Source: Henricia sp. BOLD:AAB3569
Taxonomy: Eukaryota; Echinodermata; Asteroidea; Spinulosida; Echinasteridae
Assembly: GCA_037783545.1 (NCBI GenBank)
Contig: JBBELK010000386.1
Span: 1,786,068 to 1,850,067 of the forward strand
Reading direction: 5' to 3'
Length of the DNA: 64,000 nt
In this document: positions 4,001 to 60,070 of the stretch, one piece after another
Numbering within the stretch: the first letter of the stretch is position 1
How the letters are laid out: each line of letters begins with the position of its first letter
The notes under the pieces: model-generated
What the model saw: the letters and a program-made list of their open reading frames with translations, nothing else
Databases searched by the model: none
What the model was told of the DNA's origin: nothing
Position numbers and translations under genes: made by a program

Positions 4001-6445
4001 CTGTAAATGTCACGATTCTTTCGACTGGCATCAATCGATAACGTATAGGTTACTCTTAACAAAATACATAAAATAAAATTTAAAAAATTTAAAAGTAATG
4101 CTATATTTTCTTGAAATTAATTCATTATCAGAACAGAAGTTTGTTGAAGCTTATGTTTTTTTTTTCAAGATAGCGTCGGCGGCCATTTTGGGAAAAAAGT
4201 GCTATAAAAGTTAGCTGTAACTTTTGGGAGGTGTATTGACAAATTATCACGTTTTTTGGTTTTTTTTTAATTGTCCTTTTTCATCAGATTCATCAAGAAA
4301 ACAAGCGATGGTAAACGGTCGTTCATGTCTCATTTGAAAGCGAATAACTTTTGTTTCTAGAAAAATATCAATTCAAGAAAACAACTTTTTCCCCAAAATG
4401 CTACACCCAAAACGCACTGACAATGGATACCTGTTCGGAGTTTTCTGCACACACTGGAACTAGCATATTATCAAGAATTGGTACAGCGGACATTTGACAT
4501 GTATAGATTGGTTCCCGCTAGAGGTGGCATTCCGCAATAAGCTATAGGATTGGGAACCGGTCTATACATGTAAAAGGTCCGCTGTACCAATTTATGCTAA
4601 TTCCATTGTGTGCGGAAAACCCCCAACAGGTCTATAAGCTTTAAGAAGTTGATCAGATTGTTTTCTTTAAAATGACCCATCAAGCATCGGTAAGGTTAGA
4701 TTTGATGGAAAAACCCAAATTTAGAGTGAGAAAAATGTATGATTTTGTGAGGAAACACTTGGGAATTGTTCAGCCTGCTTCATATGTTTTGTACACAAAG
4801 TCTGAATCCATGATCTAAATTCTTTCCCACAAAACATAATTGAATTTTTAAAGATTTGTTTTCAAATATTAATGGTCAACTTCTCAATTCTTACCAGCAA
4901 AAAAATAAACGCTCAAAATGCAAATTCGAATCAGCCTACCTTGATTAAAATCACTAGAATCTTCTTCAGTCTGGGTATTTGTCTATACTTTTCCGACTTC
5001 GGTTGGCGGAGCTTGCGTCTCTTGCATGCCTTGTGTGTCAATATCTGGATGACCAACAAAGTCCGAATTTCCCGGAGTGGTTATATATCCTCACGCTCGT
5101 ACCGGAGACTTCAAAGTGATCTCAATGCGTCAATAATAATTTCAAATCACTGCCAAATGCATTTTGACGAGGGGAACCAAAGTTTTAAACGGCGTCCCGC
5201 TCACTGCCAAAACTGCAAGGTGCCACATGTTGCACAGTCAGTGAAACAATAAGGGATTTTCGCATTCCGCGGCCATCTTGAAAAAAAGATCCAGTCGAGA
5301 GGAACAAAATCGCTGGCAGCCAATGATTAGCGCCCTTGTAAATGACGTCAGTCAGTGAGGTATCTGCCATTATATAGCGCTTTTCTTTGGCTGCCAGCAA
5401 TTTTCGTTCCCTCTACTGAATCTTTTTTTCAAGATGGCCGCGGAATGCGAAAATCCCTTATTCTCGAGTCCTTTTTCATTCTGCGAAAGTCCAAAAACTG
5501 AATTGGAACATACGACCGCTTTCGGAAAGCATTTACAAGCCGGTCATTCACTAAGACTATGGGACAACTCAGAAATATTCCCAGTTTTTCCTATAGTAAA
5601 TTCTTCATATTTTTTTCCCTCCAAATTTTGGTTTCTTCATTAAATTTGCACTTATTGATGTATAATAAATCATTTTAAGGCAAAATTAGTGACGTCCGAG
5701 TACTAAATTCTTACCGTATTTTAAACAGCATCTTTTCCTTCCTTCTCTTTGTTGTAGCCATTTTGAAGTGTTGCCCTCCTCAAACAAGACTTTCTTGCAC
5801 TCCTGATCCTTACATGCAACATTATTTACGCACGTATTATAAATACTATCAAGCTCCAATGCATGCATTTCCATGAACTTACGCCGACAATTGTAGTCCG
5901 AGTTTGACTGGTAAAATATAAAAGAAAGCCATTTCGAGGGACGCAATTGCTTGCAAATATATTTGCAAAGAAATGTGCGACACTGCAAATAATCGTTTGC
6001 ATTTGCGATGTCCCTTGTACCGTTGCGATGTCCCTTGTACCGTACGACGCGATGATGCTTGTATCACTTGCAAATAATTGCCGAATCTTCCACAGATCCG
6101 TTGACGTACTTCAACTCCGAGCACCCTGCCGTTCTTCACGAGGCCCGCCTCCCGATCCTCTCCCCAAAGTCTTGCCTTGACGCGTACGGTCACCTCTACA
6201 CTGACAAGATGGTGTGCGCCGGCCACATGACGGGCGAGGAACGCACGGACGCGTGCAAGGGGGACAGCGGTGGGCCGCTCATGTGCAGGGACAAGTCCAG
6301 CCAATGGGTAGTATGGGGTGTGGTCTCCTGGGGTCACAACTATTTCTGCAACGGTTCTCCAGGCAAGCCCATACCAACGGTTTACACAAAAGTCGAGAAG
6401 TATCTGCCGTGGCTGTACCAGAGACTACGACTTCGCCAATGTTGA
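1009..6445 (+). CDS. Trypsin-fold (S1) serine protease, three 3' exons, 5' partial
   Basis: Secreted S1-family endopeptidase domain. The exons are 1009-1195, 3614-3900 and 6096-6445. Their phases join exactly (1/2, 2/1, 1/stop), with AG acceptors and GT donors, and the stop codon is TGA at 6443-6445. Exon 1 carries ETCG, a probable activation site R|VVLG and the histidine motif LTAAHC. Exon 2 carries the aspartate motif DDIALIRL and VVGWGF. Exon 3 carries the serine motif GDSGGP, VSWG and a C-terminal helix. The residue six before the catalytic Ser is Asp (D189), which predicts cleavage after Lys or Arg. The residue before VYTKV is Thr where trypsins have Gly226. The cysteine in ETCG probably tethers the catalytic chain to an upstream propeptide that lies outside the window. 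Introns are filled with MITEs. The exact orthologue is not assigned. Confidence 0.9.
1196..3613 (+). other. Protease intron 1, repeat-filled
   Basis: Intron between protease exons. It holds a complete 367-bp MITE (2511-2877) and, directly next to it, the second copy of the left-edge repeat (2890-3125). I see no further coding sequence in 1250-2450. Confidence 0.7.
2511..2877. mobile_element. MITE family A, copy 1 (367 bp, TTAA-flanked)
   Basis: Begins and ends in TTAA with imperfect terminal inverted repeats (ttaaaggagcgtgaccag at the left, ctggtcacactcctttaa at the right). The same 367-bp sequence occurs at 18653-19019 and 31532-31898, in the opposite orientation to this copy. There is no coding capacity. 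TTAA ends are typical of piggyBac-type non-autonomous elements; that assignment is inference. Confidence 0.85.
4433..4629. repeat. Inverted-repeat (MITE-like) element
   Basis: The outer arms pair: the left arm contains tctgcacacactggaactag and the right arm contains its imperfect complement ending in tgtgtgcgg. An inner pair (ggtacagcggac with gtccgctgtacc) extends the hairpin. No ORF of note. Confidence 0.7.
5248..5462. mobile_element. MITE with about 55-70 bp terminal inverted repeats
   Basis: The left end (aataagggattttcgcattc) is the complement of the right end (gaatgcgaaaatcccttatt). The arms include ccgcggccatcttgaaaaaa and its complement. It lies inside protease intron 2. Confidence 0.8.
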
Positions 6446-9356: not shown

Positions 9357-9505
9357 CTATAGACCGTATCGAATAGCCGCCATCTTGTGGGGCAGTTTCT
9401 TTGTTTCTTGAGGACATGCATGGTTGTACATATTGTGCTTACATTGTTCAACAGTTTAAGTAACAAAAGGTGCCTCACAAGATGGCGGCTATTCAACTAT
9501 CTATA
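9357..9505. mobile_element. MITE family C, copy 1
   Basis: About 150-bp palindrome-like element starting tatagaccgtatcgaatagc and ending in the imperfect complement. Related copies lie at 15468-15621, 18143-18285, 28746-28895 and 54708-54857. The ends carry cgccatcttgtgggg and its complement. Confidence 0.8.
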
Positions 9506-15467: not shown

Positions 15468-15621
15468 CTATAGACCGTATAGAATAGCTGCCATCTTGTG
15501 AGGCACCTTTTGTTACTTAAACTGTTCAACAATGTATAAAGCACAATACGTGCAACCATGCATGTCCTCAAGGAACAAAGAAACTGCCCCACAAGATGGC
15601 GGCTATTTGATATGGTCTATA
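15468..15621. mobile_element. MITE family C, copy 2
   Basis: Starts ctatagaccgtatagaatag and ends atatggtctata. Same family as 9357-9505. Confidence 0.8.
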
Positions 15622-16184
15622 CGAGCAGCCTCATGGCCCAGGGAAATTGATTCGTTTTGGAGGAAATATACCGCCCGTTGTAGCTGATATTTTCCCTCGG
15701 GGTAGGGAGAGGGACTCGGTACTGTAAATAATTCAAGAGTGCACATTGGACACATTCGAAGAACAAGGGAAAACATGCAGAGTACTGTCTAAAACGAATT
15801 TGTGTTTTTGAAACAAGTGTTAGGCGTATAAGGGTGCGAATACAGAAGACCCACCACACAGTCTTGAACACACCTCCCACCGCGGACGTCCCATTGTTTC
15901 TCTTTTGTTTTGACTTTTTCTGCATGGCAACTAGTTTAATTGGTTTTGTACACGATTTAATGGATTTTAGGGGGCCCGACACCCTGAATTCCATTGTATT
16001 CCTGTATTTTAATGAGGCTGGATCCGCCTCTGTACTTCTATGTACTTCTCACCCGAGACGTCAAACTCACCTTTGTAAAAAAGTGTTTTCTGTTCCACTG
16101 CATAATGGTTTAGAGCATTGTGGTGCAAGCTATGGAGCGTCAAAAGTAGACAACCCAAATTTCTCGCTTTCTGCTAACACTATG

Positions 16185-17360: not shown

Positions 17361-18142
17361 TTTGTACCAGTGAAATGAAGTAATCACAATATGAAAGCAT
17401 GATTACTCATACTCGGACTATTCTCCGGGTTTTGCGTGATTTATTATTGTAACATTATATTCTCATTTGCACGGTTTAAGCTATAGCGACATTCCATCAT
17501 ATAAGACTGTACAGTGTGTATATATACATCGATAGAAGATAAACCATGGCGGTAATCGTATACAATTTAAACAGTAAAATACATGTAAAGTTTTACAAAG
17601 TGTTAAACACCTTTTTTTCCGGACCTCGTATTCAACGTGCAAACACGAATAGGACCGGTATTGGAAACCATTTTTAGTCATTCCATGGTGAATACCATGT
17701 GAAGTACATGTATGCTCAGGAAACCATCAGCGCACGATAGCGCCGATGAGAATTCCCGCTACCGCTGCATGGTCGTGTATAAAGCGCAATGCATTGCCTA
17801 GCCTTTTGACAAGGCCTCGTGAATTTGGGCGATTTGGTGACTTGAGTGGAGTCTACACACGCCGAGTGTCTCATTCGCTTGGCTTTTTCGAACTGCGAGG
17901 CTATTCTTATTTATTTATTTCTTTATAATCGCTACCGAATTCGGTAGCAGAAATCAGCCAGTCACGTGCAGGTCACCCTATGCAAATATCGACGTAAACA
18001 ATTACAGCCTTTTTGCCTTTATGTGGGAACGTATGTCGTTCAGCCAATCAACGCAGCGCTTTTTAATGGTCCAATACCGGTCCTCATATTCGTGTGCGTA
18101 TGTGGAATTTGTGGTCTGGGTACCAGTCTAGGATAAAGGCTG

Positions 18143-18285
18143 TATAGACCGTATCGAATAGCCGCCATCTTGTGGGGCAGTTTCTTTGCTCCTTGAGGAC
18201 ATATTGTGCTTCCATTGTTGAACGGTTTAAGTAACAAAAGGTGCCCCACGAAATGGCAGCTATTCGATACCGTACGGTCTTATTC
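18143..18285. mobile_element. MITE family C, copy 3
   Basis: Starts tatagaccgtatcgaatagc and ends at a diverged complement (gctattcgataccgtacggt). Confidence 0.8.
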
Positions 18286-20653: not shown

Positions 20654-21835
20654 CTAGCTCTCTATGCTTTTAAGAAATCCCCACATGTCTGATTCAGTGG
20701 CCTTCAGAATCTCAACTTGCTCTACTTTCATGCTCTCGAAGACTTCGTCAAACCTACAGGGCGAGAGAACAATAAAAGGGACTACGATATTAACAAATGC
20801 AAAAGATTCATTCACATCCAAGGCCGAAAATCCATGCACCCATCATGCGATGCGCGTAGCGCGCTGTGTTTTGAAAATCCATACACGTACGCATTTCTGT
20901 ATTAAAAGCCCTGCACAGGAAACGACAAGCACCAAATAGAAAATACAATTTGTCATCAAACTTGGAGTGGCTTTGGTAAGTTGGTGGTCAGACTGTCATT
21001 TCTCTTACGTCGTATAAATTAAGATGTTGTCCAACTAACCTCTCTCTCTATTATAACTGTGTGAAGGAGCGTATTTCAGGCCATTTTCCCAGTGAATTTC
21101 ACAAACAAACTTGTAGTGTGTGCGTCATCCGTGTTAAGCGCTCCCTGGAGCGTATTAAATTTAAATGGCAACGCAACAGTATAGTGCAGTGCACAGTATG
21201 AACACATGGACATATCCGCGTTGCTTTTCAAACAACTGATGTTTACGCATCACGCATAATGCGCGACGCATGATGCATACATGGATTAGTAAGAATTTAG
21301 TACTCGGATGTCACTAATTTTGCCTTTTAAATGATTTATTATACATCAATTAGGGCAAATCTAATGAAGAAACCAAAATTTGGAGGGGAAAAAATATGAA
21401 GAATTTACCAGAAAAAAGTTCGGCTTAAAGGCACAGGCTCGTCAGCAATGCGTGCGCGGCAAATTCGTGCGACGAAATACGCAGCTCCACAGTAAAGGCA
21501 TGGAGCTGCGTATTTCATGGCACGAATTTGGCGCGCACGCATTGCTGACGAGCCTGTGCCTTTAACTAATCTTCGTCGAATGAAGCGATTTTTCTAGTGA
21601 GAACGGGCACCAACCTGCTTATTGCAATAGAGCTCTGATTCATCAGTATCAATGACTCTTGCAGGGGCTTGTTGCCAAGGGGATTAATGCTTTGTAGTAG
21701 GCCAGGCAGTCCAGGGGACGCATCAGAGTTTGAGCTACTGGCTGAGGCTGCAGACGACTGGCGACTGTATGATGAGCTGACACCTGCACCGGTCGTTGTC
21801 ATGGAGGAGGGGGCGCTGCTGTGTACTTTAGTGAC
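20654..21835 (-). CDS. IKBKB: IKK C-terminal exons 18-19, with a possible short alternative end
   Basis: Exon 18 begins at 21835 ([11 protein letters not shown]) with a serine-rich stretch, then [12 protein letters not shown]. Using the donor at 21614 (AGCAG|GTTGGT, phase 2) it joins exon 19 (20753-20654), whose acceptor has a strong pyrimidine tract. That gives [16 protein letters not shown] and ends [14 protein letters not shown], which aligns with the vertebrate tail ending in the NEMO-binding motif LDWSWL. If the donor is not used, exon 18 reads through to TAG at 21566-21568 and ends ASFDED (736 aa) without a NEMO-binding-like end. The spliced form fits the family length better. The donor is not a strong one, so both ends may exist. 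Confidence 0.75.
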
Positions 21836-24800
21836 CTATGCATTCAAATAAATAAACAAAAATTACTAATACCTTGCGATCATCACAAATGCCCAAACGA
21901 ATCGCTAAATCCAAATACTATCGCTAGTTAGCGAACATACTTTTCTCATTGCAAATTATCTGTTTTACAAAAACTAAAAGCAATCGCTAAGTGACCAGTA
22001 AGAAATGACATCGTAAAATCAAATCACGGTGACTTTTTGTCAATTTCATTTGTCTAAAAGTCATGTGGTATTATGGCCTAGTTTGCTTAAGACTAAACAA
22101 ATGTACATGTACAAGTCTTTGAGAAGCCATTTAGCCTGCTACTGCTAGATCGTGTATAATTTCAAGCCGTAGGCGTAGCCAGGTAATTTCAACCTTACAG
22201 CATGTTTAAGTAGTGTCCAGACGTCTTTCTGTCTCTGGAGCTGGAGTGAAATCATTCGCTTTTCAGCCTTTTTAATCTCTTCTACGATGGCAGTTATCTT
22301 GGGAACCAGTTTTTCAACGTCCATCTTGCATGTGACCAGTTTTCTGTGTCAGGAAAGGCACAACAAAAAGTGTTGATAGCAATAGTAACAAACACCACAT
22401 GATTTTGTTTTCATGTAAAATGGGAGAAATTGCCAACTGAAGGTGGTTTTTTTTCAAAGTTGTCTGCAAACAACCTTTTTACCATTCATTCATACACAAA
22501 AAACATGTATGGATTTTTCAGATTTTCTGAAGTATTGATTGCTTTCGATGACGTAGAACATCCGGGAATGTGTGGTGGGCAACAGTCACGCGCGTACACG
22601 CGCGCGCCAATAGACGCACATGAACACGCGTAAAAAATACTCACCAGCGTATTTTCATTCAAAGATGACGCACGCGGGCATTGTGATACGTTCAAATTAT
22701 TGAGCATGCACTCGGCTTGTAAAAACGAAAGTGGTTTTAGTTGATCGCGATTTTTAGCCTGAAGAAATGCGTTTTTATCTTTCTCGATACAACAGCCATG
22801 GCGCAACAACATAAAGCAAGGTCAAGCAACAAAGGTAAGTGCAACCAATGCGCTTTTCCTGCTCTTTTTGCTGGTTATTACTCGAGCCACGTGGGTCATG
22901 AAAAATGCCCACCAAAATGGTGAATGGAAGGGGTGACGTCACCGGAAAGCAATCAATTACTGCATCTCTGTGCCTGACGTTTCTACAAGGCAGTTTTCTC
23001 GACCAGTGATCTCCACTACCGGTTTTGTCCGGGCGCGCCGCCCGGACAAAATCATCAGAGGTACCGTTAGCGCCTGGACAAAAATTTGCCGCCCGGACAA
23101 AACATTGTGCCGCCCGGACAAAAAAAAAACAATTTCTCCTCCAAAACACTATGAAAGTACAGCCAAGTCATTCCAAAATGAGGTGTAAATTCACCTAACG
23201 TGATTCGGTAGTCACTGGCGTCATTATCGGTCATTTACCACGCAAATCTATCGGATCGGCGACCCAAATTCGCATCGATAACGGCCATGACAGTATGCAT
23301 TTGTTGAACAGCGCCCTGAAGAGGCGAATTTGTTGACCTCTTGAGGGCGCTGCATGCCAACCGCTGTGTCGCGACGTACGGCCGGGTGCGTTCGTGGTTG
23401 TGTGTTTGGGTGAGTGCGTGCTGCTGCCGCCGCCATCGCCATTCCCCCCCCCCCCCCCCCCCCCCCCGCTGAGCGACATCGGCGCGCCCGGACAAAATTT
23501 GGACCAGTGGAGATCACTGTCGACATGGGCTTTTAATCACGAGTGGAAATAACACTATTGTTAACAGTTTACCAATCATGTACCGTCTTTAACTCACAGT
23601 ATGTAGCCGAATAGCTCCTTGGTCTGTTTGGCTCTGCTATTTATGCTCCTCATGACTAGACTTTGTATCTTGGTACTGTCTTGAAAGGTTAAGGCCCCTT
23701 CATTGCCTGTTGAGACAAACACAATAAGGGACATTCCTCAAAGGGGGCCAAAAAGTTTAGGGCGCGTTTGTTTCATCATAGATCGGAATCCAGATCTCGA
23801 GTTGTTTTACCGCGCAGAAACAATTGAAACTGCACTCAACAATGATCTCAAATCATGTGAATTGCAATTTAACCGTGAAAATGGCCAAATGTGTCGGTAC
23901 ATTGCCCGTACTACATGTACTTGTTCATGTCTTTAGGTAATATCAAGGGACATGGAATTCCTTTAAAAAAAATAATTCACAAGACACAAAGCTATGCGCT
24001 TACTTTTACTCTGTTGCAGTTCACGGTACAACTTGTTGGCTGCCTTTTCACTGTGTGAAGACAAGAAAAGAAATAACCAAACTTGGGATGAGAGAAAAAT
24101 GTCATGAAAACAATTTTTGTAAATAAAAAGAGTATGGTAGCATTGGGAAAAACAATTGGAAATAAAGTGGGTTTTGCTAGTCTTAAACATACGTTTAAAA
24201 CTGGCTAGGGGCCTGGAAGAGTGATAATGGCCCGAGCCGTGGATCGCAGAGCACACAAAAAAAAAGCGGAAATCCGCTAAAAATCAGAGATTTCACAATG
24301 AAAAACAGAAAACTCTCAAATCTGGACGTGTTGGTAAAATTCTGGAAAATCCGGAAAAATTATGACAAATCTCACCCCTGTAGTTTACAAAACATCAGTG
24401 TTTTTTTTAAAAACGTACGGATTGAGAACGCGAAATTTTAAAATGGCAATGAGAAAAACATGAAAATATTAATACCCATGGGGAAAATGGGGAGTTATAA
24501 AAATGTGATCTGGACACGCTCCTTCAACAGTGATCTTATTATCATTGTTCGACTGTAATACATACACTTCCTCAAGATCTTCAACATGTTTCTGTCTTGA
24601 GAGGGGGCTACGCTGAAGCTCCACAATCCGAGTCTGCGTTATGTTAACCTGACCACTCAGTACGTACACCTTCCTCAACTGGTCATAACAGAAAAACCAT
24701 GTATAGTTAGAAAATGTGCTTGAGTGGTGTACTCATATCAAGAGAAAAAGAGATCTGTAGTACATCACATGCCTTGGTCTAAAGCCTAGCGTACATCAAC

Positions 24801-27800
24801 ATTGCAACTGGAAGCAACTAGTGACAACTGGTGTTTCCGGCAACTGGAAGCAACTCGCGGCAACTGGGAGCAAATGATCAGTTGCTTAAAAAGGTTGATG
24901 TGTGCGCACTTGCAACTACTGGCAACTGGAAAAATCCCAGTTGTCGCGAGTTGCTCATGTTCTACTTTCTGGCAACTAGTTGTACCCAGTTGCGGTCAGT
25001 TGCGTCGATGTACACGTAGTTGCAACTAGTTGCTGTCAGTTGCATGTGTGTGTCTGAATACGTGCGCGCACATCGACAGCAACTGCAAGCAACAGTTGCT
25101 TCCAGTTGCAATGTCAATGTACTCTAGGCTTTACCGAGTTGCCGTTTCGATCTTTAATAGACTAGAAAATGCCTATATATCAAGAATTTGCAACCAGCTT
25201 GCAGAGTTGTACCGAGTCTCCCTGTGTTTAAATCAAGTCAAGTCAATCTGCTTTTGAGTCCCAAGTCAAGTCAATCTGCTTTTGAGTCCCAAGTCAAGTC
25301 AAACTGCCTTTAAATCCCAAGTCAAGTCAAATGGCCTTAGAGTCCTAAGTCAAGTCAAGTCAAGTCAAACTACCTTCTAGTCCCAAGTTACTCCTAGAAT
25401 CAGAGGCTACTCCGTTAGCCTCCTAAACAATATATTTCTTGAAATATGCATAACTCCAACGGCCGTTGATAGTCGAATTACATTTATCTAGAATTTAACT
25501 TTCACAAATTTCCCCCAAAAAGCAATCCTAGCTGTACTGGATCTCTTTAAAATGCGGCAACGATGTTTTTTAAAAGTCATTTAAGGTTCAAGTCAAGTCA
25601 AGTCAGTGAAAATTGGGCCTTGAGTCAATTCGAGTCCCGAGTCTCGAGTCCGAGTCATTACAACACCGTCGACTTGGACTTACCAGACCATTTTATTTAG
25701 GAATACATATACCACTAGCAAAGTCACATTTTATCAGGAAACATTCTGAGTTTTTCAACTTACTTCTTCAACATCTTCTACAACGTCCCGCTCTGTGTTC
25801 TTCCATGAACGAAACATCTTCTCGGATGCTGTAAGGAATAATGTCGCAGAAATCTTGAAGTGAAGGCCACTGCGAAGCTACTGCAAGGCCTTTTAATTTG
25901 TTATGCCTTCTAGGGCATCAAAAGACAGATCATGGTGCTGTCACTAGAGGGCGCTTTACCATTTCGTGTCTGACGAACATGCTGGGCGAATGGAGGTATG
26001 ATTGTCAAATCGCTATAACGAACAATCGCTATAAAGAAAATTTTATGTGGACCCCGCTGTGTTCGTTGTAGTGACGTTCTACGGTAGTCCAAGCCTAAGG
26101 GCGTGTTTGTTTCGGACGGATCCAGATTCAGATCTGCGCAGATCCAAAGTGAATTCGTTCACTTCGCGCACATCCTTATCGAGATCTGTGATCTGTGGAA
26201 TCCTTCTCGAGAGATGGTTCAGCGCTAGATCCAAAATGGCGACGTAAACATCGCAAAGATTTTGTGTGAGTAAAACCGTGTCGTTTCAGTTTTCAGAGGC
26301 AACACACGATACAAACAAATTTAGAATGCTTGTTTATTTACGACGAATGTCGTGGGAGAAATTTGGAACGAATTTGGTAAATAAATTGCAATTCACGTGA
26401 TTTGAGATCCGAGTTGAGAGCAGTTTCGTTTGTTTCTGCGCGGTAAAACAGATCGGGATCTGGATTCGGATCTGTCATGAAACAAACACGCTCTAATTTT
26501 TTCAAGGGCCAACCTCCTAGGTGGCCTGCTACCCTACAAGCCATTTGAATGAGAACTTACTGATGCCTGATGGGGACTGCACGGCGTAGGAGGTGATATC
26601 AAACTCCAAACTGGAGCGAAACATCTCGGACTTGGCTTCCAGCTTGTCCATCTGACCCATCATCTCTTTATGTAGATCGGTCAGTTGGTGGTTTAGTCGC
26701 ATTAAACACAACCTACCGATCAATACACACACAAACATTGTCTAATATTACAATGGAGATTCGAACACTATTTGGTAAGCTGCTTTTAAGCCAAAATATA
26801 ACGGTGGGAAAATGGTCGGTATTTTTTAATTCTTCAAATCTACATGTACATGTTCTTCAAACCCCAAGCCTTCTTCCTGTCACTGTAGCTCAGTAGAGTC
26901 TCGGGTTCTTGGACTGTCACAAGTCACCTACATACCGAGCTAATCAAACGGAAGACCCACTTACATTGCAGCTCTAGCACCCTCTAGTAACCTAGACGTC
27001 TCACTAGCCTGCTGACTGCAGTAGTATAATGCTTGGCCCCAAGCCTTCTTCCTGTCACTGTAGCTCAGTAGAGTCTTGGGTTCTTGGACTGTCACCTACA
27101 TACCGAGCTAATCAAACGGAAGACCCACTTACATTGCAGCTCTAGCACCCTCTAGTAACCTAGATGCCTCACTAGCCTGCTGACTGCAGTAGTACAACGC
27201 CTGGCCCCAAGCCTTCTTCCTGTCACTGTAGCTCAGTAGAGTCTCGGGTTCTTGGACTGTCACCTACATACTGAGCTAATCAAACGGAAGACCCACTTAC
27301 ATTGCAGCTCTAGCACCCTCTAGTAACCTAGACGCCTCACTAGCCTGCTGACTGCAGTAGTACAATGCTTGGCCCCAAGCCTTCTTCCTGTCACTGTAGC
27401 TCAGTAGAGTCTCGGGTTCTTGGACTGTCACCTACATACTGAGCTAATCAAACGGAAGACCCACTTACATTGCAGCTCTAGCACCCTCTAGTAACCTAGA
27501 CGCCTCACTAGCCTGCTGACTGCAGTAGTACAACGCCTGGCCCCAAGCCTTCTTCCTGTCACTGTAGCTCAGTAGAGTCTCGGGTTCTTGGACTGTCACC
27601 TACATACTGAGCTAATCAAACGAAGGACCCACTTACATTGCAGCTCTAGCACCCTCTAGTAACCTAGATGCCTCACTAGCCTGCTGACTGCAGTAGTACA
27701 ACGCCTGGCCCCAAGCCTTCTTCCTGTCACTGTAGCTCAGTAGAGTCTCGGGTTCTTGGACTGTCACCTACATACTGAGCTAATCAAACGGAAGACCCAC

Positions 27801-30800
27801 TTACATTGCAGCTCTAGCACCCTCTAGTAACCTAGATGCCTCACTAGCCTGTTGACTGCAGTAGTATAACGCCTGGCCCCAAGCCTTCTTCCTGTCACTG
27901 TAGCTCAGTAGAGTCTCGGGTTCTTGGACTGTCACCTACATACTGAGCTAATCAAACGGAAGACCCACTTACATTGCAGCTCTAGCACCCTCTAGTAACC
28001 TAGATGCCTCACTAGCCTGTTGACTGCAGTAGTATAACGCCTGGCCCCAAGCCTTCTTCCTGTCACTGTAGCTCAGTAGAGTCTCGGGTTCTTGGACTGT
28101 CACCTACATACTGAGCTAATCAAACAAAGGACCCACTTACATTGCAGCTCTAGCACCCTCTAGTAACCTAGATGCCTCACTAGCCTGCTGACTGCAGTAG
28201 TATAACGCCTGGCCCCAAGCCTTCTTCCTGTCACTGTAGCTCAGTAGAGTCTCGGGTTCTTGGACTGTCACCTACATACTGAGCTAATCAAACGAAGGAC
28301 CCACTTACATTGCAGCTCTAGCACCCTCTAGTAACCTAGATGCCTCACTAGCCTGCTGACTGCAGTAGTATAATGCTTGGCCCCAAGCCTTCTTCCTGTC
28401 ACTGTAGCTCAGTAGATTCTTGGGTTCTTGGACTGTCACAAGGCAAAGACATAAAAAATGTATATGGGTCTTTCTATAAATTAGGGGTCCAAAAGTGTGA
28501 CATTTGGTGTCCCCCGTTACACCTAATATGTGTTATTTTTCGTACAAAAATCATTAAAATGGCTTTTAAACCATTTTGTATGAATTGTACTTTATGTACT
28601 CACTCTTTGAGATGGAAAGTATTTAAAGAATGTGTCCTGAATTTACAAAAACAAGATTTGAAATGTAACGGGGGACACCAAAGCTGGACCCCTAATTTAT
28701 AGAAAGACCCATATACCCAACATGATGTGACAAAGGGACTGCCTCTATAGACCGTATCGAATAGCCGCCATTTCGTAGGGCAACTTTTATTACTTAAACC
28801 GTTCAACAATGGAAGCACAATATGTGCAACCATGCATGTCCTCAAGGAACAAAGAAACTGCCCCACGAAATGGCGGCTATTCGATACGGTCTATACCTCA
28901 ACACACTCTTCCCTTTTGTTAACACACCAACCACCTCCCCCCTCCACTACCCCAAAAAAGCTTGAAAGGAATTCCTCTAAAATTCCTTGGATGTTTGAGA
29001 CAAAATGGGTGTAACAATGGAAGAGGGAGTACCCTCTGTCACATATCGTACTGCATATGTATTTATTTAACCAGTTAAAGAGCGTGTTCAGATTTTTTCC
29101 GAAAATGGATTTCGTTCTAACTGAACAATCATATATTAAACTACCTCTCTAAAATACTATTAATGGGATGAAAACAGGAAGTTTAATTTGGATGTGGAAG
29201 CAAAAAGGTTGGTGTAATCACTGCACTGATTTATGTAAACAGACAAAATAGTTTACTAAACTAGATTTTTCATGATATCCTTGGAAATGTGTGACATAGT
29301 AGCATAAGTCGCGCTGGCTAGTATTCTTTCTGTGACAATAAGAAGCAATATGTGGCATTATAACACAGACATTTCAGGGGGAACACAGACATTCCAGGCA
29401 GTATCTGGGCACCGCCCGGAATTTCCATTGTGTTTTGGTATTTTATTATTTAATAAGCATTGATTTATTGTTTTTAAAATGCAATAAAAAAAACAAATGA
29501 CAAAACTCACTGATCAAATTGACTAATTCCGGTCTGGCCTTGCCTGGCAAGCTGTCGGGTACTTTTCCTTTATCAAATAGGAACATGAGAAATCCTGGCT
29601 GGTTCTGCAAAAGAAATGTAAAATGACTTCTTGAAAAGTACAGTTTAGACCAATTCCTTCTACTCTCTAGAATTGATTTGAAATTGCATCCTTTGACTAG
29701 GCTCGGGCGATCCACGCAGGAGTATAGTAGAATCGATTCCACTTTGGGAATCGCAGTCCAAATTTCGGTTGTCAAATTTTCACAAGTTGCACAAGCTATG
29801 CAATTTTTTGTGAAATGAATTGCCGATTCTTAAACCTACCTCTCTATTAGTGCACTGTATTGCCAGCTTATCCGAAGCCACTGTCTGGCCAGTTGGCATT
29901 AGGATATCTTGCTGAGCAACCGGTACGCCGGTGTCCTTTTCGAGTTGCCGTTGTAAACGCAGCATTTCATCCGTTTCCCTGATGGCGTAGCTGTGCAGTG
30001 TGTCTGTGTTTACGAATAGTATGTTGATAACCTGCGCAGACAGAAAAGGATCTGGATTATTTGATGTTGCGATTCTTGACAAAGATTTATATTCCAATTG
30101 CTAACTATTTGAATAATCATTTTTACTGACCATTTTGATTGGGAGCTTGCACACGGGTTCAAAGGGTCACTATTGCAATTGATATAAGACTTGTTCTCCA
30201 ATACTTGGGACTTCAATCGAGACTTGCTCTCCAAGACTTGGGGCTTCAATCGAGACTTGCTCTCCAAGACTTCGGGCTTCAATCGAGACTTGCTCTCCAA
30301 GACTTGGGACTTCAATCGAGACTTGCTCTCCAAGACTTGGGGCTTCAATCGAGACTTGCTCTCCAATACTTGGGACTTCAATCGAGACTTGCTCTCCAAT
30401 ACTTGGGGCTTCAATCGAGACTTGCTCTCCAATACTTTCAACTTTGGGACATAAAACAGCCCCGTTTTAGGAAGCAGAGATGTTACCATACCTGCATTCC
30501 TTGCAGTTTGTCTAGATAAGTAAAACACGTGGGACGATTTGTTTCGGGGTCAATGCCGCCCCCTCGAGTGTCAGGCTCAAATCTTAGCATGAATTGTAGT
30601 AACCTCTCGAAGGCCTTGCAGTATAACCTGTTGAAGAAGCAAGGCCAATTCATGTATGTATGTTAAAGACAGATTACATGATTGGAAAACTTTTAAAAAC
30701 AGGAACAACAGCATTACATAACTAAAGAATAATGTTGACAAACTATACTGAAACGCAAAAGAAACTTACCACCTTTTAAACCTTTAAAAAGCAACAATAA

Positions 30801-33800
30801 CACTGCGTGTAGTAATGTGTCAACTTATTTGTGGACAATAGTGTCCTCACTGTCAGACCAAACGGTGTCTGAAGGTCACTTGAACCTTCAATGGTCACTT
30901 CATGGCACAGCTGTTGACTGTCAGTGATTAGCCAAGGGGTATGGGACGATTGTAATGAGCTGCATCGGCTGCGCCATAATTCGAACAAATTTCGACCAAC
31001 ACGCGCGCGTGTTTGGAACAGCGTGTGCGTGCGCGTACTTGATAGCATTTAATACGCAGTAGCATTTCTTCCTACGAAGATGGCGTCTGTGAACGTGATC
31101 AATTGTGGTATTAACCATCACTATTTTTATTTTTTTTTTAAAATTCATTGTGGCACCCATTTTGTCTATTTTAAATATGTCACCCCGTACACTCAACAAA
31201 AATACGCCAATTCTGTTTTAAGCAATGGCCAAGTCACTTGAATATGTGGGTGAAAATGTTATAAGTCGAAGGAGGTTGTGGGTTCGAGTCCCACCCGAGC
31301 ATGCTATGAAAATTTTCCCTCAGTTTCTCGGTGAAGCACCGAGTATACAGTGCTAATCAACTTACGATGAGCAACGTCAAAAAACCGTAAATAATATTCT
31401 CCTCAGGGCAAAACAAAATAATTAATATTAAACAATTGGGTCTTGAATTTAGAGTAGTACTTACGGTGTAAGGTGGTTTGGGGTGAGAAGACTTTCTGTG
31501 AAGATTGGAATACCTGTAAACAGAGAATTATTTAAAGGAGTGTGACCAGATCACTTTTGTTTACCCATAACTCCCCGGGACTTACCTTATGGGTCATGAG
31601 ATTTTTATATCATAACATCCGTTATATTTTTCTGATTACGAAACTGAAACTCCCGCGCTTCTAGGCCGCATATTTCCGAGGATATCGTCGAAAATCCACC
31701 GATTATTTGTAAACTAATTTTCCAGTATCAACGTTTATCCGCTGAAAGCATACTCGATAGTTTTGTTCAATTTTTTACTGGAAATTGCGAATGTTTTCGT
31801 GTTTTTGGGACATGGGAGGTGTGTATGGGAGTTACTTGATAATATTGGTAAGTTACATCGAAAACTATTTTCCAGAAACTCTGGTCACGCTCCTTTAAGT
31901 AATTAATAACCAACTTTTTGGCAATTCACCAAAAAATAAACACAAAAATAAAATTGTCCTAAAAAACAAAAACAAATTGTGTCGATACTGTGATTTATAA
32001 GTTCTCAACAAGATTTGTCCATTCTTAAGGCCTGTCTACACGAGCCACCATTTGTTGGCCAACAGGGTCCAACACGTGTCCGACGATGTCGGCCGACCAA
32101 AAGTTGGATGGTGTGGACGTCGCTCCAGACAACGTCCAACATCATCCAACTAGTTGGAGCATGTATGAACATGTTCCTATCGTCCGACTTTTTTGGAGCT
32201 TGTTGGAGAAACGAACCAATAGCAGGTTAGAACGCATGAAGGCAGCAACCAACTGCGGTCAAGATATGCTGGAACATGTTGGTTGGCGCAGTCGACCGCA
32301 TCCATGTACCGCCCAACAAGTTCCAACTTCATGTTGGTCCTTGTTGGCCAACAAATGTTGACTCGTGTAGACGGGCCTCAACAGTTCTAGAAATGCCACC
32401 GATTATATTTTTTTCAACGGATGAAAAATTGCAGAAAATGTGCACACACCATCTACACTTGCACGACATATTTCTATGGACATTTCACCTCAAAAACCAT
32501 TTAATCTCTTCTATGGTGAATTGATTTATAAATTAAATTATTATAAAGAAAATAAAACAAAAATGAAACCTTCTGCATTGAGGTAGGCACAAATCTCATT
32601 GTCCGTCTTCTGTTTCACGGTGCCGTGCCTACGACAGAATGATTAAAAAAATATAAACACTTGTCAGCCATATTTTTAAATTTTTCCTTATGGAATTTTT
32701 TCCAAGGGTTTGTGACGTAATTATAGCCCTATTACATTTTACTTCATGAGTTGACAAGAAAAAGCAGATTAAGTGTTGATAGGAATGGTAACAAACACCA
32801 CATGATTTTCTCCCCGTGTATAAAAATGGTACCTTTACAGACTACCGAAGTCAATACGTCATCTTTTGTTAGTTGCCTAGGCAATGGTTCTACACTAAAG
32901 ATCACTGAACCGTGTCCCTGTGCTTTTGCAAGAGTACTTTTGCTGACAGCCATGATGTTTAGAGCCAATTACCATGGCAACCCACGTCACACTTTGGCTG
33001 TCTATGGGAGAAAATGCCAGCTGAACTTTTTTTTTTACAATTGTGTGCACACAATTTTATTCACCATTCACGCAACACAAAACACATAACACGTCGCAAA
33101 GCTGACATAGTGACGAATGTGCAGTGTTAAAGCCATTGCATATTCGTCACTATGTCAGCCTTGCGACGAATTGTGTGTTTGTGTACTTTTTGTGTACGTA
33201 CTGGGACTGTACAGCAGCGCTCGCGGTAAGCAAATTACGTCGGTCTTGTATTTTTAACGCTGGTGCAAAGCTAGTTTTCGCTTCGAAATGCGTCACTAAA
33301 AGTGGGAATTTTTACATTTCTATATACATGTATATGTTTCAATGTTTATTCAGGATTTTGAGGGCTTCGCAGCAATGGCACAGGGCCAAGTTATGTGCTA
33401 AAGGGTAATTGTCGTACCATTTAACTGGAGGCATTTGTGGTAGGAAGGGCCTGCTGCCCGTTATGCATTCAAACAGCACCGTGCCCAGCGTCCAGTAGTC
33501 AACGGTTGAGCCGTATTTCTGGGAAGCAAAAAGTTCTGGTGCCTAGACAGAAAAAATACAAAAACAAACGATTCTTCACATTTTGCAGTAAACATGGAGT
33601 GCAAAAAGCTATGCGTTCAAGTGAATTCTGTTAAAAAACTGCCCAGGCTATTACCATAAAAGGTGCACTTTTTTCACTGCGCAGCTCCAAGAGGTACACT
33701 TTTAGATTTGCTATTTGGCACTCGCGCATAATTGTGAAATCAGAGGATTGATACAGTAAAATCTTGTTAAGTCGAAACTATTGCAGGGCCGCACACACGC

Positions 33801-36114
33801 ATGGCCGGCGATTAGTGCTATCCTGTACTAATTTTGAGTTACTTATGTATTCGCGTGCAGAAAAGCCTATTCTTATGTCGGGAATGTGCCATTACTTTGA
33901 GGTAAACAGAGTTTCGAGGTTTCCGGTTTTGATTTAATGAGATTTTACTGTATTCAGTTTCCAAAAATACGAAGCTTGAATTTTGAGATTCGAAAAATGA
34001 CTGCCGACATTAACTTACCAAATACTGCAGGGTGCCTACAAACGTACTGGCCACGCTACCCTGATCCATGTCCTTGGCATAGCCTAAGTCGATCAACTTG
34101 TACACCAGCTTCACAAAGAAGGAAAGAAACAAAAACCTCTTTTTATGAAGTTAATTGAGGAAACAAAATATTACTTAGCATGGCACATGGATTTGCATTT
34201 TCTGAAAAAAAGAAGAAAACCTGATGTTTGCACTCAGGAAAACTCAACCCTAAAACCAGGGTGGTATTCAAGTCAAAACTATACTTAGTATTTAGCTTGA
34301 TTATTTAGAAAATGACTTGACTCGCGTTCAAATGTCTTCTAAAATGTTTACTTTATTTTTACATGGCGAGACCTGTTACTTGATTTAAATACATGACCAG
34401 GGATCGATTTCACAAAGCGCTAAGATGCGTCACAATTACCAAACCCATCTCAACTCACCGAATCCTTTGTAAGTTTTGCCACGGGTTCGGTGAGTTGCGA
34501 TGGGTTTAAGTACTTGCGGCGCGTCACAAGTCTTTGTGAAATCAACCCCAGGTCTCAGTGATTAGTTGTGATTTCAAAATATATAAAATGTTTATATATT
34601 TGACTTAAGTCTTCCAATGAATATCTCCTCTGGTGGCAAGTTTTGGTTGCCTGTAAGAGCAGTTACCTACATGTACTTTGCATTATAAAAACAAGAACGG
34701 GTTGACAAAGTTGCCCATTTGATAACTCGTTTTTGTTCGCTGTGTTGCCTTGACAGAATTTAGGTTGCCAGGGCAACTGGGCAAATGTTACTTCAGCAAT
34801 TTGAGGATTTAAGTAGGAATTTTAAAAACATTAAGAATGCAATCGTACCTGTCCGTTCTCGTCCTCCTGTATGACAATATTTTCCGGTTTCAGATCACGA
34901 TGAATAATGCGTTTGGAGTGAAGATGTTCCACCCCACTGCATATGTGCTTAGCTATGACCAATATCGGCTCTTGCTTCAAACCACAGCAATTCTCTGGCC
35001 TGCACAAGACCTTTGGGAGAAAAAATAAATCATAATGGAGACATTATTGGACTCCGACGGAGATTTGAGCCGAGTCAAGTGAAAACAAATACACATACAT
35101 TAAAATACATTTTACATAAAGTAGGTCTATATTATTACAAGTGCCGGGAAATATTTTCAAGTGCCTATTACAAATTGTTTGGGCCCAAACTTGCAGCCCG
35201 CAAGTGTGGACTCGACTAAAGCCATGTACCTTGCGCAGGTCTCCCTTCTTGCAGTACTCCATGCCTAACAGCGGCAGGTCCCCTTGCCCCATTTGTAGAT
35301 CCTCAGGCACCTCTTTAGCCTGTACAATATGCTCATGGTCAAGACGTTTCATGATATCAATCTCCATCTTCCAGCGTTTGGTGTTCTTGGCATCTAAACT
35401 TACTCTGCATTGCTTGAGGGCCAGGTTCTCTCCTGAATCCTGAACAAAAATATAGTATTGAGGTTTATCACGCTACGTCACGAGACGTCCAAAGGTTTAT
35501 TAGCATAATAATTAGTGTTCCAAGTCAGCAGACGCGCGTGCATTTTCAAATTTGTGTATAAATTTCTATAATGCGCGCTAGAATGTAAAAATGTGTGGAA
35601 GGCGCGCGATATCTGCGTGATTTGAACACAGACGTCCAAAAAGCACGTGGGTGAAAAACCGCAATAGGTCATTTCAGTAAGGTTTTTCCGGTCAAGATGT
35701 TGGTTAAAATTCTTAATTTTTTAAATTCGATACGGCAATGTAAGCACGACGTTTGAAACCATTTGGCTCGGCAAATTGAATTCGGCACGGCAGAAGAATT
35801 TAGCTCGACAGGGTCTGCCGTGCTAACTAAATTTAGTGCGGCACAAGCACGGCGCGGTTTCAAACGTCATGCTTCTGCCGTGTCGAATTTAATTCAAGTT
35901 CGAAGTTGGGCCGCAATTGTGTTCACAATTAGGAAAGCAACTGGCCTAAGCAACTGGCCCTGTTGACCACTTGGAAAAAAAGTTGAGGGAAAACAATGTG
36001 TACATGTACTTTAATTACCTTATTTTCCCACAGAGTAACGGTGCCAAAGCCTCCTTGTCCCAGTGTCCTCTGCAAGGACCAACTGCCAACTGTCTTCACG
36101 ATGGCAGTCGCCAT
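20654..36114 (-). CDS. IKBKB: IkappaB kinase catalytic subunit (IKK alpha/beta type), complete, 19 coding exons
   Basis: Ser/Thr kinase that phosphorylates IkappaB to release NF-kappaB; it acts in the cytoplasm as part of the IKK complex. On the minus strand the exons are 36019-36114, 35230-35439, 34849-35010, 34019-34108, 33418-33542, 32570-32628, 31465-31513, 30492-30627, 29840-30031, 29511-29604, one copy from the array at 26965-28432, 26561-26712, 25764-25828, 24566-24678, 24004-24050, 23598-23679, 22199-22343, 21615-21835 and 20654-20753. Every splice phase joins, giving about 753 aa (human IKK-beta is 756). Domain order is kinase (1-305), ubiquitin-like (310-395), scaffold/dimerisation (400-660) and C-terminal tail. 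ATG at 36114 is chosen because [10 protein letters not shown] leads straight into the glycine loop. A TTTGTCAG just upstream suggests a 5' UTR intron. It is divergent from NUDT13. Confidence 0.95.
21425..21565. mobile_element. 141-bp TTAA-flanked palindromic MITE at the short-isoform stop codon of IKK
   Basis: Arms of about 60 bp are almost perfect complements (ttaaaggcacaggctcgtca at each end). The right TTAA (21562-21565) directly abuts the TAG at 21566-21568. A related end (aaaggcagaggctcgtca) occurs at 2876-2893. Confidence 0.85.
22199..26712 (-). CDS. IKBKB: IKK scaffold/dimerisation-domain exons 12-17
   Basis: Exon 12 (26561-26712) starts [13 protein letters not shown], completing the RAAM codon from exon 11, and ends SPSGI. 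Exon 13 (25764-25828) has [15 protein letters not shown]. Exon 14 (24566-24678) has [17 protein letters not shown]. Exon 15 (24004-24050) has [12 protein letters not shown]. Exon 16 (23598-23679) has [12 protein letters not shown] and KELFGYI. Exon 17 (22199-22343) has VEKLVPKI and [13 protein letters not shown]. These are the long helices through which IKK subunits dimerise, in the same order as in vertebrate IKK. All are too short or interrupted to stand out as long ORFs. They were placed by homology and splice phase. Confidence 0.92.
22368..22560. repeat. Left-edge-type repeat copy in IKK intron
   Basis: Shares gtgttgatagcaatagtaac, acaaacaccacatgatt and the ttgccaactgaaggt words with 600-912 and 32750-33085. 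Confidence 0.7.
23440..23467. repeat. Poly-C tract in IKK intron
   Basis: Uninterrupted C run of about 25 bases, flanked by cgccgc words. Confidence 0.9.
23720..23890. repeat. Dispersed repeat, inverted partner at 26370-26520
   Basis: gcgtttgtttcat, gatcggaatccagatct, ttttaccgcgcagaaacaa and gtgaattgcaattt recur in reverse complement and in mirrored order at 26370-26510, on the other side of IKK exon 13. Confidence 0.7.
24783..25132. mobile_element. Inverted-repeat element rich in CAACTGG words
   Basis: The ends pair (agcctagcgtacatcaac with gtcaatgtactctaggct). The interior is packed with ttgcaactgg/ccagttgcaa words. Short relatives lie at 48896-48992 and 8930-9020. Confidence 0.75.
25225..25680. 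repeat. CAAGTCAAGTCAA tandem repeat in IKK intron
   Basis: Four to five units of about 30 bp (caagtcaagtcaatctgctt-type) at 25225-25390. A second patch lies at 25585-25670 with gagtcccgagtctcgagtcc. Confidence 0.8.
26862..28432 (-). repeat. IKBKB: Tandemly duplicated IKK exon 11: nine full copies plus one truncated
   Basis: Full exon copies on the minus strand, 5' to 3': 28309-28432, 28141-28264, 27973-28096, 27805-27928, 27637-27760, 27469-27592, 27301-27424, 27133-27256 and 26965-27088, each 124 bp at a constant 168-bp step. A tenth copy starts at 26913 but breaks off at about 26862 without its donor. Each exon encodes [20 protein letters not shown] and [10 protein letters not shown], matching the IKK segment with WAEAVHY and RLFQGQRAAM. 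Every full copy keeps an AG acceptor (gtgacag) and a GTAAGT donor, with a 44-bp spacer between copies. The first copy reads EPKN, the last full copy EPKT, and the others EPET. Most other differences are synonymous. Confidence 0.93.
28461..28716. mobile_element. MITE with about 60-bp inverted ends upstream of the IKK exon array
   Basis: tatatgggtctttctataaa at the left matches the complement of tttatagaaagacccatata at the right; cccccgttac/gtaacggggg pair further in. It lies about 30 bp from the acceptor of the first exon-11 copy. Confidence 0.85.
28746..28895. mobile_element. MITE family C, copy 4
   Basis: tatagaccgtatcgaatagc at the left and gctattcgatacggtctata at the right; in IKK intron 10. 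Confidence 0.85.
29081..29330. repeat. Family B element, partial
   Basis: Shares gcgtgttcagattttttcc, aaaatggatttcg-tctaac and ttggatgtggaagcaaaa with 44941-45243 and 55437-55785. Fragments also lie near 24415-24530, 39610-39830 and 51695-51830. Confidence 0.65.
29511..30031 (-). CDS. IKBKB: IKK ubiquitin-like domain exons 9-10
   Basis: Exon 9 (29840-30031, 64 codons) begins VINILFVNT and contains [20 protein letters not shown]. Exon 10 (29511-29604) contains [13 protein letters not shown] and ends in phase 1. Position and pattern match the ubiquitin-like domain that follows the kinase in IKK alpha and beta. Exon 10 hands one base (A) to the first codon of the duplicated exon 11. Confidence 0.93.
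30188..30450. repeat. 33-bp minisatellite in IKK intron 8
   Basis: Seven full copies and a partial copy of a 33-bp unit (cttcaatcgagacttgctct plus ccaagacttggg). Because 33 is a multiple of three it stays open on both strands ([11 protein letters not shown] on minus). The exon 8 frame ends at the donor at 30492, and the open frame here is a different one, so I treat the array as intronic. Confidence 0.85.
30492..36114 (-). CDS. IKBKB: IKK kinase-domain exons 1-8
   Basis: Exon 1 has the glycine loop GQGGFGTV. Exon 2 has the ATP lysine in LALKQC (about K41), then [11 protein letters not shown]. Exon 3 has PENCCGLK and the catalytic loop HRDLKPEN (about D141). Exon 4 has the IKK-type DLG motif (about D163) and the activation loop [12 protein letters not shown]. 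Exon 5 has [13 protein letters not shown] and GSRPFLP. Exons 6 and 7 are only 59 and 49 bp. Exon 8 has [15 protein letters not shown]. In the activation loop the first regulatory serine is kept (about S174), but the second site (human S181) is Thr (about T178), preceded by an extra Ser. The catalytic residues expected of an active kinase are all present. Confidence 0.95.
31255..31360 (+). repeat. tRNA-derived SINE fragment
   Basis: Contains a pol III B-box (ggttcgagtccc at about 31280) followed by ccctcagtttctcggtgaag. No complete cloverleaf can be formed. Lies in IKK intron 7. Confidence 0.5.
31532..31898. mobile_element. MITE family A, copy 3, next to the IKK exon 7 acceptor
   Basis: 367 bp with TTAA ends. 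Its edge is 18 bp from the first base of exon 7 (31513), so the branch-point region of that intron is element sequence. Confidence 0.85.
32028..32379. mobile_element. Inverted-repeat element with ggcctgtctacacgag ends
   Basis: The left end (aggcctgtctacacgagcc) pairs with the right end (gactcgtgtagacgggcct). The interior has tgttggccaaca and many ttgga/tccaa words. Confidence 0.75.
32745..33180. repeat. Left-edge-type repeat with an inserted segment, plus adjoining hairpin
   Basis: The ends match 600-912 (tgttgatag-aatggtaaca, acaccacatgatttt). The middle (32830-33000) is foreign to that repeat. Directly after it, 33080-33180 forms a hairpin with catagtgacgaat and attcgtcactatg arms. Confidence 0.6.
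34399..34550. mobile_element. MITE with gatttcacaaag ends in IKK intron 3
   Basis: The ends gatcgatttcacaaag and ctttgtgaaatcaacccc pair; inner arms include acccatc-caactcaccga with its complement. Confidence 0.75.
35725..35900. repeat. Inverted repeat in IKK intron 1
   Basis: gacgtttgaaacc pairs with ggtttcaaacgtc, and acggca/tgccgt words recur between. Confidence 0.65.
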
Positions 36115-42262: not shown

Positions 42263-43988
42263 CTTGTTCTTTGTGTAATTCAATAATGTACGAGTAGCAC
42301 TTGTTTATGTTCAGCACAATGTCTTTTGTTTCTTTGGTATATTTCTATATTCTCAAATTATATTCTCAGGGAAAGAATTCTATAGTGTATGATTATACCA
42401 TTATATTTATTATAAATGAATTTTTAAAAGACTTGTTGGACAGTGATTATACGTGTAGGGGAGAGTGGGGTTAGTTAGCAGTTTTACTTATGGATTAACG
42501 TGTACTATGGGTTTACAGTAGCACCATGTGAATCTCTTTTGTATATGTGTGGTTCTGAAAAGAACCGGTGAGTGTGAACTCAACACTGTTCGAAACGTCG
42601 AGTTCACACTCACCAGTTTATTTCAGAACCATAGATATACAAAAGAGATACACACGTTGATTTCCACCATGCATACAGTCTTACCTACATGGATTAACTT
42701 GTACAGCTCGGCCTATATGGTTCCCCAAAAGGGGAAAAGTTGTAGGATATTTTACTTCTCATCCTAACCATAATTTAATTCTGGTTTAAATTTATAGGGA
42801 CCCTGCATATTCTTCATCTATTGTACATGTGAAGTGTATGGCTGAGAATGTTTTATTGTTAATGTTTAAAAGATACAGTGCAAGAAGTTCAAAATGTAAA
42901 GTTTACAATCTAAACTTTTTAATCAGGATGTTTTATGGCTAATTTTAATATTTTTAAGTTAAGTTAAAAACAGTTGAATTATAAGTGGGCGGAAAGTCAT
43001 CTTAACCGCTTGATGCATAAACTGTTTTGGTGCTCTTGTTTTGTACAGTTGCTAATGACCCCCCTGTTAATTAGCACCCCCAATTTACAGCTTATGTGTC
43101 CGACATGTTAATTAGGTTGATTACAGAAGTCATAGTAGTTTTTAAATGACCACATACTGTGTTTCAACTTACCCCGTAGGTGTGCAATGACATTATAAGG
43201 GTGATCCTGCATTCCTTTGGAAGCTTTCGGCCACCGTCTCCAGAAACGTATTGCCATAGGAGGATGCCAAGTCGAAAATGGCAAAATATGAAATTGAGTA
43301 TCTCCTCCCCCACACACACCGACAAAGATGATGCAAATCGCTCATTAAAATTTGTCGGGCCTTTTTACATGATCTGAAATTCTGGTCTAAATCCGTTGGA
43401 TCAAGGACAAAGTTATTTAGTAGAACTTTTGCACAGTGAAATAAATTTACAACTTGCATAGTACGTGCTCCCAAAACGTGGGTGCAGAATCCAAGCCTCT
43501 CCACATGGTGTTGTCACTCCAAACCCAAGAAACAGACTGAAGGTTTGGAGGGACAACATGCCCTTAAATAGCTTGTAAAAGAATGTTAAGACTGCTAAAC
43601 AAAAAACAAATATGCTACAGCAATTTCAGGCGTTCACATGGCCTCAATCGCACAAAAGAACTGACATTCCTGAGCATATGCAGTGCGATATAAGACAGAA
43701 GGTACCTCCCTTCCATTGTTACCCCATTGTGTCTCAAATATCCAAGGAATTTCAGTTTTCAGGGGCGAGTTGGTGCATTAACAAAAGGGAAGAGAAATAG
43801 GGCTGCTAGGGTTACAGTGTTCAAACCCAAAAAAATGTTTAACTTGTGAAATGAAATGTATTTTATTTTCCGAAGAAATATTTTTCTCGGCCTATATAGA
43901 GCAAACTTGGCCTGCTGAAGACTCGGATGTATGCTGGACTCGGACTCAAGTAAAAAAGTGGACTCAGCCCTGCTCAACTGGTCGCGAC

Positions 43989-54200: not shown

Positions 54201-54465
54201 CCCGTAGATCTGCTTGGTCGCGTATTTGTCGCAGAGGATGTTGTAGCTCATGACGGAGAATATTGCTGCATTCAGAAAAAATCATTTAAACAAATTAATA
54301 CTCATACTGAAAGATAAAGCTGAGAATTGTAACATTATATGCATTTTTTACCATTTTTTTGGGAGGTGGGGGTGAAATGTTTAAATAAATGCCTACCAGC
54401 TGGTCTTGTTCGATCAGGATCTTTGATGTGAATCCACGGTCTCGTTGGTGGCATTGTAGTTGGGG
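51225..54465 (-). CDS. CNOT6L: CNOT6L linker and EEP nuclease exons 3-8
   Basis: Exon 3 is a 69-bp linker (PPTRPWIHIKD). Exons 4-8 carry the nuclease, with the magnesium and catalytic residues in LQEVE, LCGDLNSLPDS and SDHF all intact. The last exon ends with a Ser/Thr-rich tail (GEITSTSTSNSR) that differs from mammalian CNOT6L. Hairpins sit close to the donors of exons 5 and 6. Confidence 0.94.
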
Positions 54466-59978: not shown

Positions 59979-60004
59979 CCTGGAGGTTTCTTCTGCACGA
60001 AAAG

Positions 60005-60070
60005 AACACAGAAATGTGTTAAGCAGAAGGTCCGTGGTTCGAATCCCAGTGGAGCTCAGTTGTTTTTCAC
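60005..60070 (+). repeat. tRNA-like B-box fragment
   Basis: ggttcgaatccca near 60034 directly upstream (in CNOT6L sense) of exon 1; the rest of a SINE head is not clear. Confidence 0.4.

Follow-up and report, generated by a model that had tools for sequence, protein, structure and literature searches.

A sea star IKK gene carries one frame-shifting coding exon in nine tandem copies, only one of which can be read in frame at a time

The stretch of DNA analysed here, called the window throughout, comprises 64,000 nucleotides (nt) of the sea star Henricia sp. BOLD:AAB3569 (contig JBBELK010000386.1, positions 1,786,068 to 1,850,067 of the forward strand), and it contains a gene of the IKKalpha/beta type (IKK being a kinase of the NF-kappaB pathway) in which exon 11 is present as nine full tandem copies and a truncated tenth. 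Joint use of the copies is barred by the reading frame, which is restored by exactly one of them. We lean, with modest confidence, towards a reading in which copy 1 is the exon in use and copies 2-10 are passengers of the intron, with minor leakage of splicing into them ending in decay, so that the array would be a young minisatellite that bears an exon. Coordinates are positions in the window and follow the plus strand; the array itself lies on the minus strand.

The exons of the host gene were located with a human IKKbeta sequence, and their borders were then set by hand. In the resulting 19-exon model every intron is GT-AG and, with exon 11 used once, there is a single open frame of 762 amino acids (aa) that is unbroken across all 19 exons, which rules out a pseudogene. 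The best PDB match of the protein is IKKbeta (4kik, E 6.9e-163, residues 6-659) and Pfam places Pkinase at 14-285 and IKBKB_SDD at 382-657, bearing out the identity that had been proposed for the gene from its letters and translations (hereafter, the sequence-only reading). Judged by its sequence, the gene is an intact IKKalpha/beta kinase, with kinase and scaffold/dimerisation domains in one collinear protein. Exon 11 codes for the residues IQEP through RAAM, which lie where the scaffold domain begins, and here the IKKbeta chains 4kik and 3qa8 (the latter named MGC80376 in the match list, and presumably from Xenopus) align without gaps to one copy's worth of sequence. Compared by way of these solved chains, the protein is like vertebrate IKKbeta/IKKalpha both in its two domains and in being collinear with a single copy of exon 11. 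By eye, its C-terminal end, ESDMWGFL, resembles the NEMO-binding segment; the NEMO-binding Pfam family gave no match in the protein at E 0.001.

Exon 11 is 124 nt long and runs from phase 1 to phase 2. Its nine full copies follow each other at a step of exactly 168 nt, separated by spacers of 44 nt, and their starts (the higher coordinate in each line below) run from 28432 to 27088. Each full copy closes with a GTAAGT donor, and gtgacAG precedes all ten copies. Tandem Repeats Finder reports 9.4 copies with 97% matches and 0% indels, at a score of 2897 that is the top of 46 rows, and with its head-to-tail units, constant period and high identity the array is a minisatellite. The sequence-only reading had described the nine copies, their step and their donors accurately; it was also right that a tenth copy breaks off at 26862, after 52 nt, but the spacer before that copy is 51 nt long and not 44. 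The unit occurs nowhere else in the 64-kb window. Coding through the array on either strand was ruled out, as none of 43 stop-to-stop frames of at least 110 aa spans it (one, at 28352-28702 on the plus strand, overlaps its edge), and neither of the two gathering-level matches to RNA families in the window lies inside it. The gene, the array and the two exons that flank it are as follows.

20654-36114, minus strand: IKKalpha/beta-type gene, 19 coding exons, 762 aa, with its ATG at 36114 and a TAG that ends at 20654
29511-29604, minus strand: exon 10, ending in phase 1 with A as its last base
28309-28432, minus strand: exon 11 copy 1, the sole copy after an ordinary acceptor, coding for IQEPKNLL...
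28141-28264, minus strand: exon 11 copy 2
27973-28096, minus strand: exon 11 copy 3
27805-27928, minus strand: exon 11 copy 4, the same in exon sequence as copy 3
27637-27760, minus strand: exon 11 copy 5
27469-27592, minus strand: exon 11 copy 6
27301-27424, minus strand: exon 11 copy 7
27133-27256, minus strand: exon 11 copy 8, the same in exon sequence as copy 5
26965-27088, minus strand: exon 11 copy 9, with K as in copy 1 and an A-to-T replacement
26914-26964, minus strand: spacer between copies 9 and 10, 51 nt with 7 extra nt, ending in GTGACTTGTGACAG and making a step of 175
26862-26913, minus strand: exon 11 copy 10, cut off after its first 52 nt and lacking the GTAAGT donor
26561-26712, minus strand: exon 12, beginning with G in phase 2

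Exon 11, joined as a single copy to exons 10 and 12, gives the uninterrupted protein of 762 aa. Skipping the exon leads to a stop at residue 407, 844 nt ahead of the last junction, splicing two to nine copies in order leads to a TGA within the second copy at residue 456, and retention of a spacer leads to a TAA within the donor at residue 446. Single-block products, in which the acceptor of copy i is combined with the donor of copy j and three AGs are allowed for each of copies 2-9, are open in only nine of 117 cases, these being each copy alone with its CAG acceptor; the remaining 108 stop prematurely, as do all 2040 two- and three-copy products (computed with three AGs per copy, not every AG). 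Products that start from an upstream AG, at 7 or 19 nt, stop at residue 417 or 421 (72 of 72), and with the 7-nt AG the stop is always at 417 (36 of 36). The premature stops of the single-block and two- and three-copy products fall 945-2195 nt before the last junction, and at these distances, as at the 844 nt of the skipped form, decay would be expected. A longer protein made by including several copies is ruled out, since all products with two to nine copies in order and all 2040 two- and three-copy products stop. The phases, the two stops and the incompatibility of the copies had all been read from the letters beforehand, and they stand.

The copies are alike in their donors and differ in their acceptors. 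The nine full-copy donors are identical and strong, scoring 9.8, above all 17 other donors of the gene (-1.9 to 8.3). Each of the nine spacers also contains another donor-like site, GTATGT preceded by CTCA or CTCG, about 29 nt past the main donor (for example at 27104 and 26936, minus strand), and the seven such sites that were scored reach 7.0-8.7. The acceptors were judged against those of the gene's other exons, 17 controls in all, which a position-specific model scored by leave-one-out. Under this model the controls score -0.3 to 13.4 and copy 1 scores 2.5, copies 2-9 score -12.3 or -12.2, under all 17 controls, and copy 10 scores -1.4; under a pooled model the controls span -1.9 to 7.8, with copy 1 at 4.95, copies 2-8 at -1.16, copy 9 at -0.76 and copy 10 at -0.24. 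Both models rank copy 1 top of the in-frame sites of the array, to differing degree. Between positions -20 and -4 there are 7 pyrimidines in copies 2-9, 11 in copy 1 and 8-15 in the controls, and the closest upstream AG is 7 nt away in copies 2-9, 14 nt in copy 10, 37 nt in copy 1 and 20-93 nt in the controls; in human exons, according to passages of PMC1431707, the final 12 nt of the acceptor are free of AG in more than 90% of cases. The copies had been called splice-competent by the sequence-only reading, a description that fits the nine donors but not the acceptors, of which only that of copy 1 is ordinary and those of copies 2-9 are pyrimidine-poor with an AG close upstream. The intron sequence that a copy has in common with copy 1 upstream of the exon amounts to 7 nt in copies 2-9 and 10 nt in copy 10. 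Since copies 2-9 keep only 7 nt of intron 10, the duplicated unit seems to extend from exon 11 and its donor some 35 nt into intron 11 and to lack the pyrimidine tract of intron 10.

The 44-nt spacers are, as suspected earlier, probably too short to be spliced. Each of the nine spacers has a sole match to the branch-point motif yUnAy, with its A 21 nt from the donor, and the gene's 16 other introns, not counting those on either side of the array, are 219-1254 nt long. A distance of less than 50 bp between donor and branch point is treated as potential steric interference in passages of PMC5740500, where it applies to 57 of 629 human clusters (9%), and 377 of the 629 (60%) have exons not divisible by three.

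According to the favoured reading, the segment that was duplicated would have comprised exon 11 with its strong donor, some 35 nt of intron 11 and no more than the final 7-10 nt of intron 10, and the array would then have grown by unequal exchange and conversion. Exon 10 would be spliced to copy 1 through the real intron-10 acceptor that this copy retained, and the copy 1 donor would be joined to exon 12, with copies 2-10 leaving as part of a roughly 1.6-kb intron. The downstream copies would offer good donors, poor in-frame acceptors and spacers too short for excision, and any leak, whether through use of two copies, a retained spacer or an upstream AG, would produce a premature stop and presumably decay.

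The variation among the copies is consistent with such a history. Eight sites vary in the exon among the nine copies and four in the spacer among the eight 44-nt spacers. All four combinations of states occur at 6 of 28 pairs of exon sites, and neighbouring copies resemble each other slightly more than chance predicts (sum 19 versus a mean of 26.2, P 0.047); this mosaicism and likeness of neighbours are what unequal exchange and conversion would be expected to produce. Copies 1 and 9 have states in common that most middle copies lack, and a K/E site falls on a CpG, with K agreeing with IKKbeta chains 4kik and 3qa8. An assembly artefact, with copy number inflated or copies misjoined, would be a concern because near-identical tandem arrays are generally hard to assemble, but assembly errors more often shorten such arrays than lengthen them. 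Moreover, the mosaic of differences at the 8 exon and 4 spacer sites and the distinct sequences at both array ends show that the array is not a mechanical repeat of one sequence, and we regard an artefact as very unlikely.

A true cluster of mutually exclusive exons, from which any of copies 1-9 is picked singly, would account for the open 762-aa frame that each of the nine gives alone and for the bar to joint use, set by frame and probably also by spacer length; there is no steric bar to joining exon 10 to any given copy, and a slight hint of coding constraint on the copies (see below) points the same way. Such a cluster would, however, have little to choose from: the nine copies encode 3 protein variants and copies 2-8 code for identical residues, which leaves hardly any protein choice. 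The weak in-frame acceptors of copies 2-9 also speak against it. Pairing between docking and selector sequences gave no signal when three flanking stretches, none of them from the middle of intron 10, entered six duplex comparisons, the best of the six being matched by 7 of 100 shuffles, and competing RNA structures of the Dscam type were rejected for these stretches. The stability of one-unit and two-unit folds does not exceed that of shuffled sequences (z +0.58 and +0.79). On this evidence we consider mutually exclusive use improbable.

Several observations weigh against copy 1 as the sole exon in use. Under the position-specific model, the upstream AGs of copies 2-9 score 3.8-5.1 and one AG before copy 3 scores 7.6, all above the 2.5 of copy 1, whose acceptor comes only 26th among the 269 AGs between exons 10 and 12; the pooled model reverses the order of the upstream AGs, which there score 0.12-0.52, far under copy 1, and with only 17 training sites neither model settles the matter. 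The pooled scores of copies 2-8 exceed one of the 17 controls and those of copies 9 and 10 exceed two, and exon 12's own acceptor is weak as well, at 0.28 in that model. AGs less than 12 nt apart compete and the preceding base matters, as passages of PMC1431707 describe, so that CAG could beat the upstream TAG at copies 2-9; human cells do splice 43-nt introns, according to part of PMC4463651. The flank of copy 1 may have been altered since the duplication, given that a foldback element ends 27 nt upstream. Finally, of the eight exon sites that vary, five are synonymous (P 0.014, 0.027 and 0.049 at transition weights of 1, 2 and 4), which weakly suggests a coding constraint unexpected in pure passengers; the sites are few and shared, and the excess could be explained by copies cycling through the used first position.

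The upstream AGs also bear on a rheostat of unproductive splicing, in which identical strong donors and out-of-frame acceptors would regularly yield stop-bearing transcripts and the length of the array would set the level of IKK. It would fit the premature stops in 108 of the 117 single-block and all 2040 two- and three-copy products, at least 945 nt before the last junction, as well as the 72 products that begin at upstream AGs, the lead of the 7-nt AGs over the copy 1 acceptor in the position-specific model, and donors that outscore the 17 others. Yet the pooled model sets copy 1 well ahead, exon definition should favour copy 1 with its donor 124 nt away, and there is no sign that array length varies. 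We think a rheostat unlikely, and less likely still in its copy-number-dependent form, in which each copy would add a strong donor and a poison acceptor and individuals with longer arrays would make less of this innate-immunity kinase, its protein sequence unchanged.

Two further elements, both in intron 10, lie upstream of the array; the second resembles miniature inverted-repeat transposable elements (MITEs).

28460-28716, minus strand: foldback element whose terminal inverted repeats match perfectly over 32 nt, ending 27 nt before copy 1
28746-28895, minus strand: second palindromic, MITE-like element, with four related copies elsewhere in the window by self-blast

The other members of the MITE-like family, at 15468-15622, 54708-54857, 9358-9494 and 18142-18273, are 85-91% identical to the one in intron 10. 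At the opposite end of the array, the truncated copy 10 could form, within 26843-26913 (minus strand), an in-frame exon of 64 or 70 nt if a GTACAT or GTAGAT beyond it served as donor; 2 of the 26 tested combinations of GT and acceptor are open, and the 64-nt form falls short of exon 11 by 20 codons. The span of the IKK gene contains six tandem arrays, and the five besides the exon 11 array are all smaller; intron 8 holds a minisatellite at 30187-30437 (33 nt, 7.6 copies). Elsewhere in the window, Pfam identifies successive parts of a trypsin-like serine protease profile at 3567-4073 and 6056-6442 (plus strand), and open reading frames (ORFs) with Exo/endo phosphatase and leucine-rich-repeat matches at 53952-54281 and 59511-60155 (minus strand), which together suggest a CNOT6-type deadenylase gene. 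A long tandem array with periods of 111, 224 and 335 nt lies at 61342-63004, about 1.2 kb beyond the leucine-rich-repeat ORF, and the window also has a histone 3' untranslated-region stem-loop at 42526-42571 (minus strand) and a tRNA-Thr (TGT) gene at 52888-52957 (plus strand).

Well-known mutually exclusive clusters code for differing variants, and the IKK array is unlike them in that copies 2-8 are identical in protein; it is also unlike them in being a 168-nt satellite with 44-nt spacers and an ordinary acceptor at copy 1 only. The likeness to such clusters (Dscam, MRP, Mhc and 14-3-3zeta; human clusters in passages of PMC5740500) lies in tandem homologous exons of equal length and phase, in a length not divisible by three, through which joint inclusion shifts the frame, and in a short distance from donor to branch point as a steric bar. 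Exons duplicated in tandem and exons used in a mutually exclusive manner are familiar phenomena, as parts of PMC9013439, PMC6071210 and PMC5224494 relate, with fly clusters of 48, 33, 12 and 8 exons (PMC6071210). Intragenic minisatellites, or variable-number tandem repeats, are matched in the exact period, the identity of about 97%, the mosaic variants and the fractional last copy, but here the unit holds a whole conserved coding exon with its donor, and it cannot lengthen the protein, as one copy spliced to another shifts the frame and brings in a stop. The sequence-only reading knew of no earlier description of this arrangement in an IKK gene, and we likewise found none in open-licence PubMed Central, judging by titles and the starts of abstracts; on the same basis, none of the papers listed there for IKK with duplicated or alternatively spliced exons, in invertebrates or in molluscs, treats the subject.

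With nine identical donors and nine near-identical exons within one transcript, and a frame that flags errors as stops, the array is a natural test bed for the choice of splice sites. It suggests a way in which an important signalling gene could tolerate an amplified exon that is conserved and shifts the frame, if the amplified unit leaves the acceptor signals behind, and it is a candidate for gene dosage that would depend on copy number through decay.

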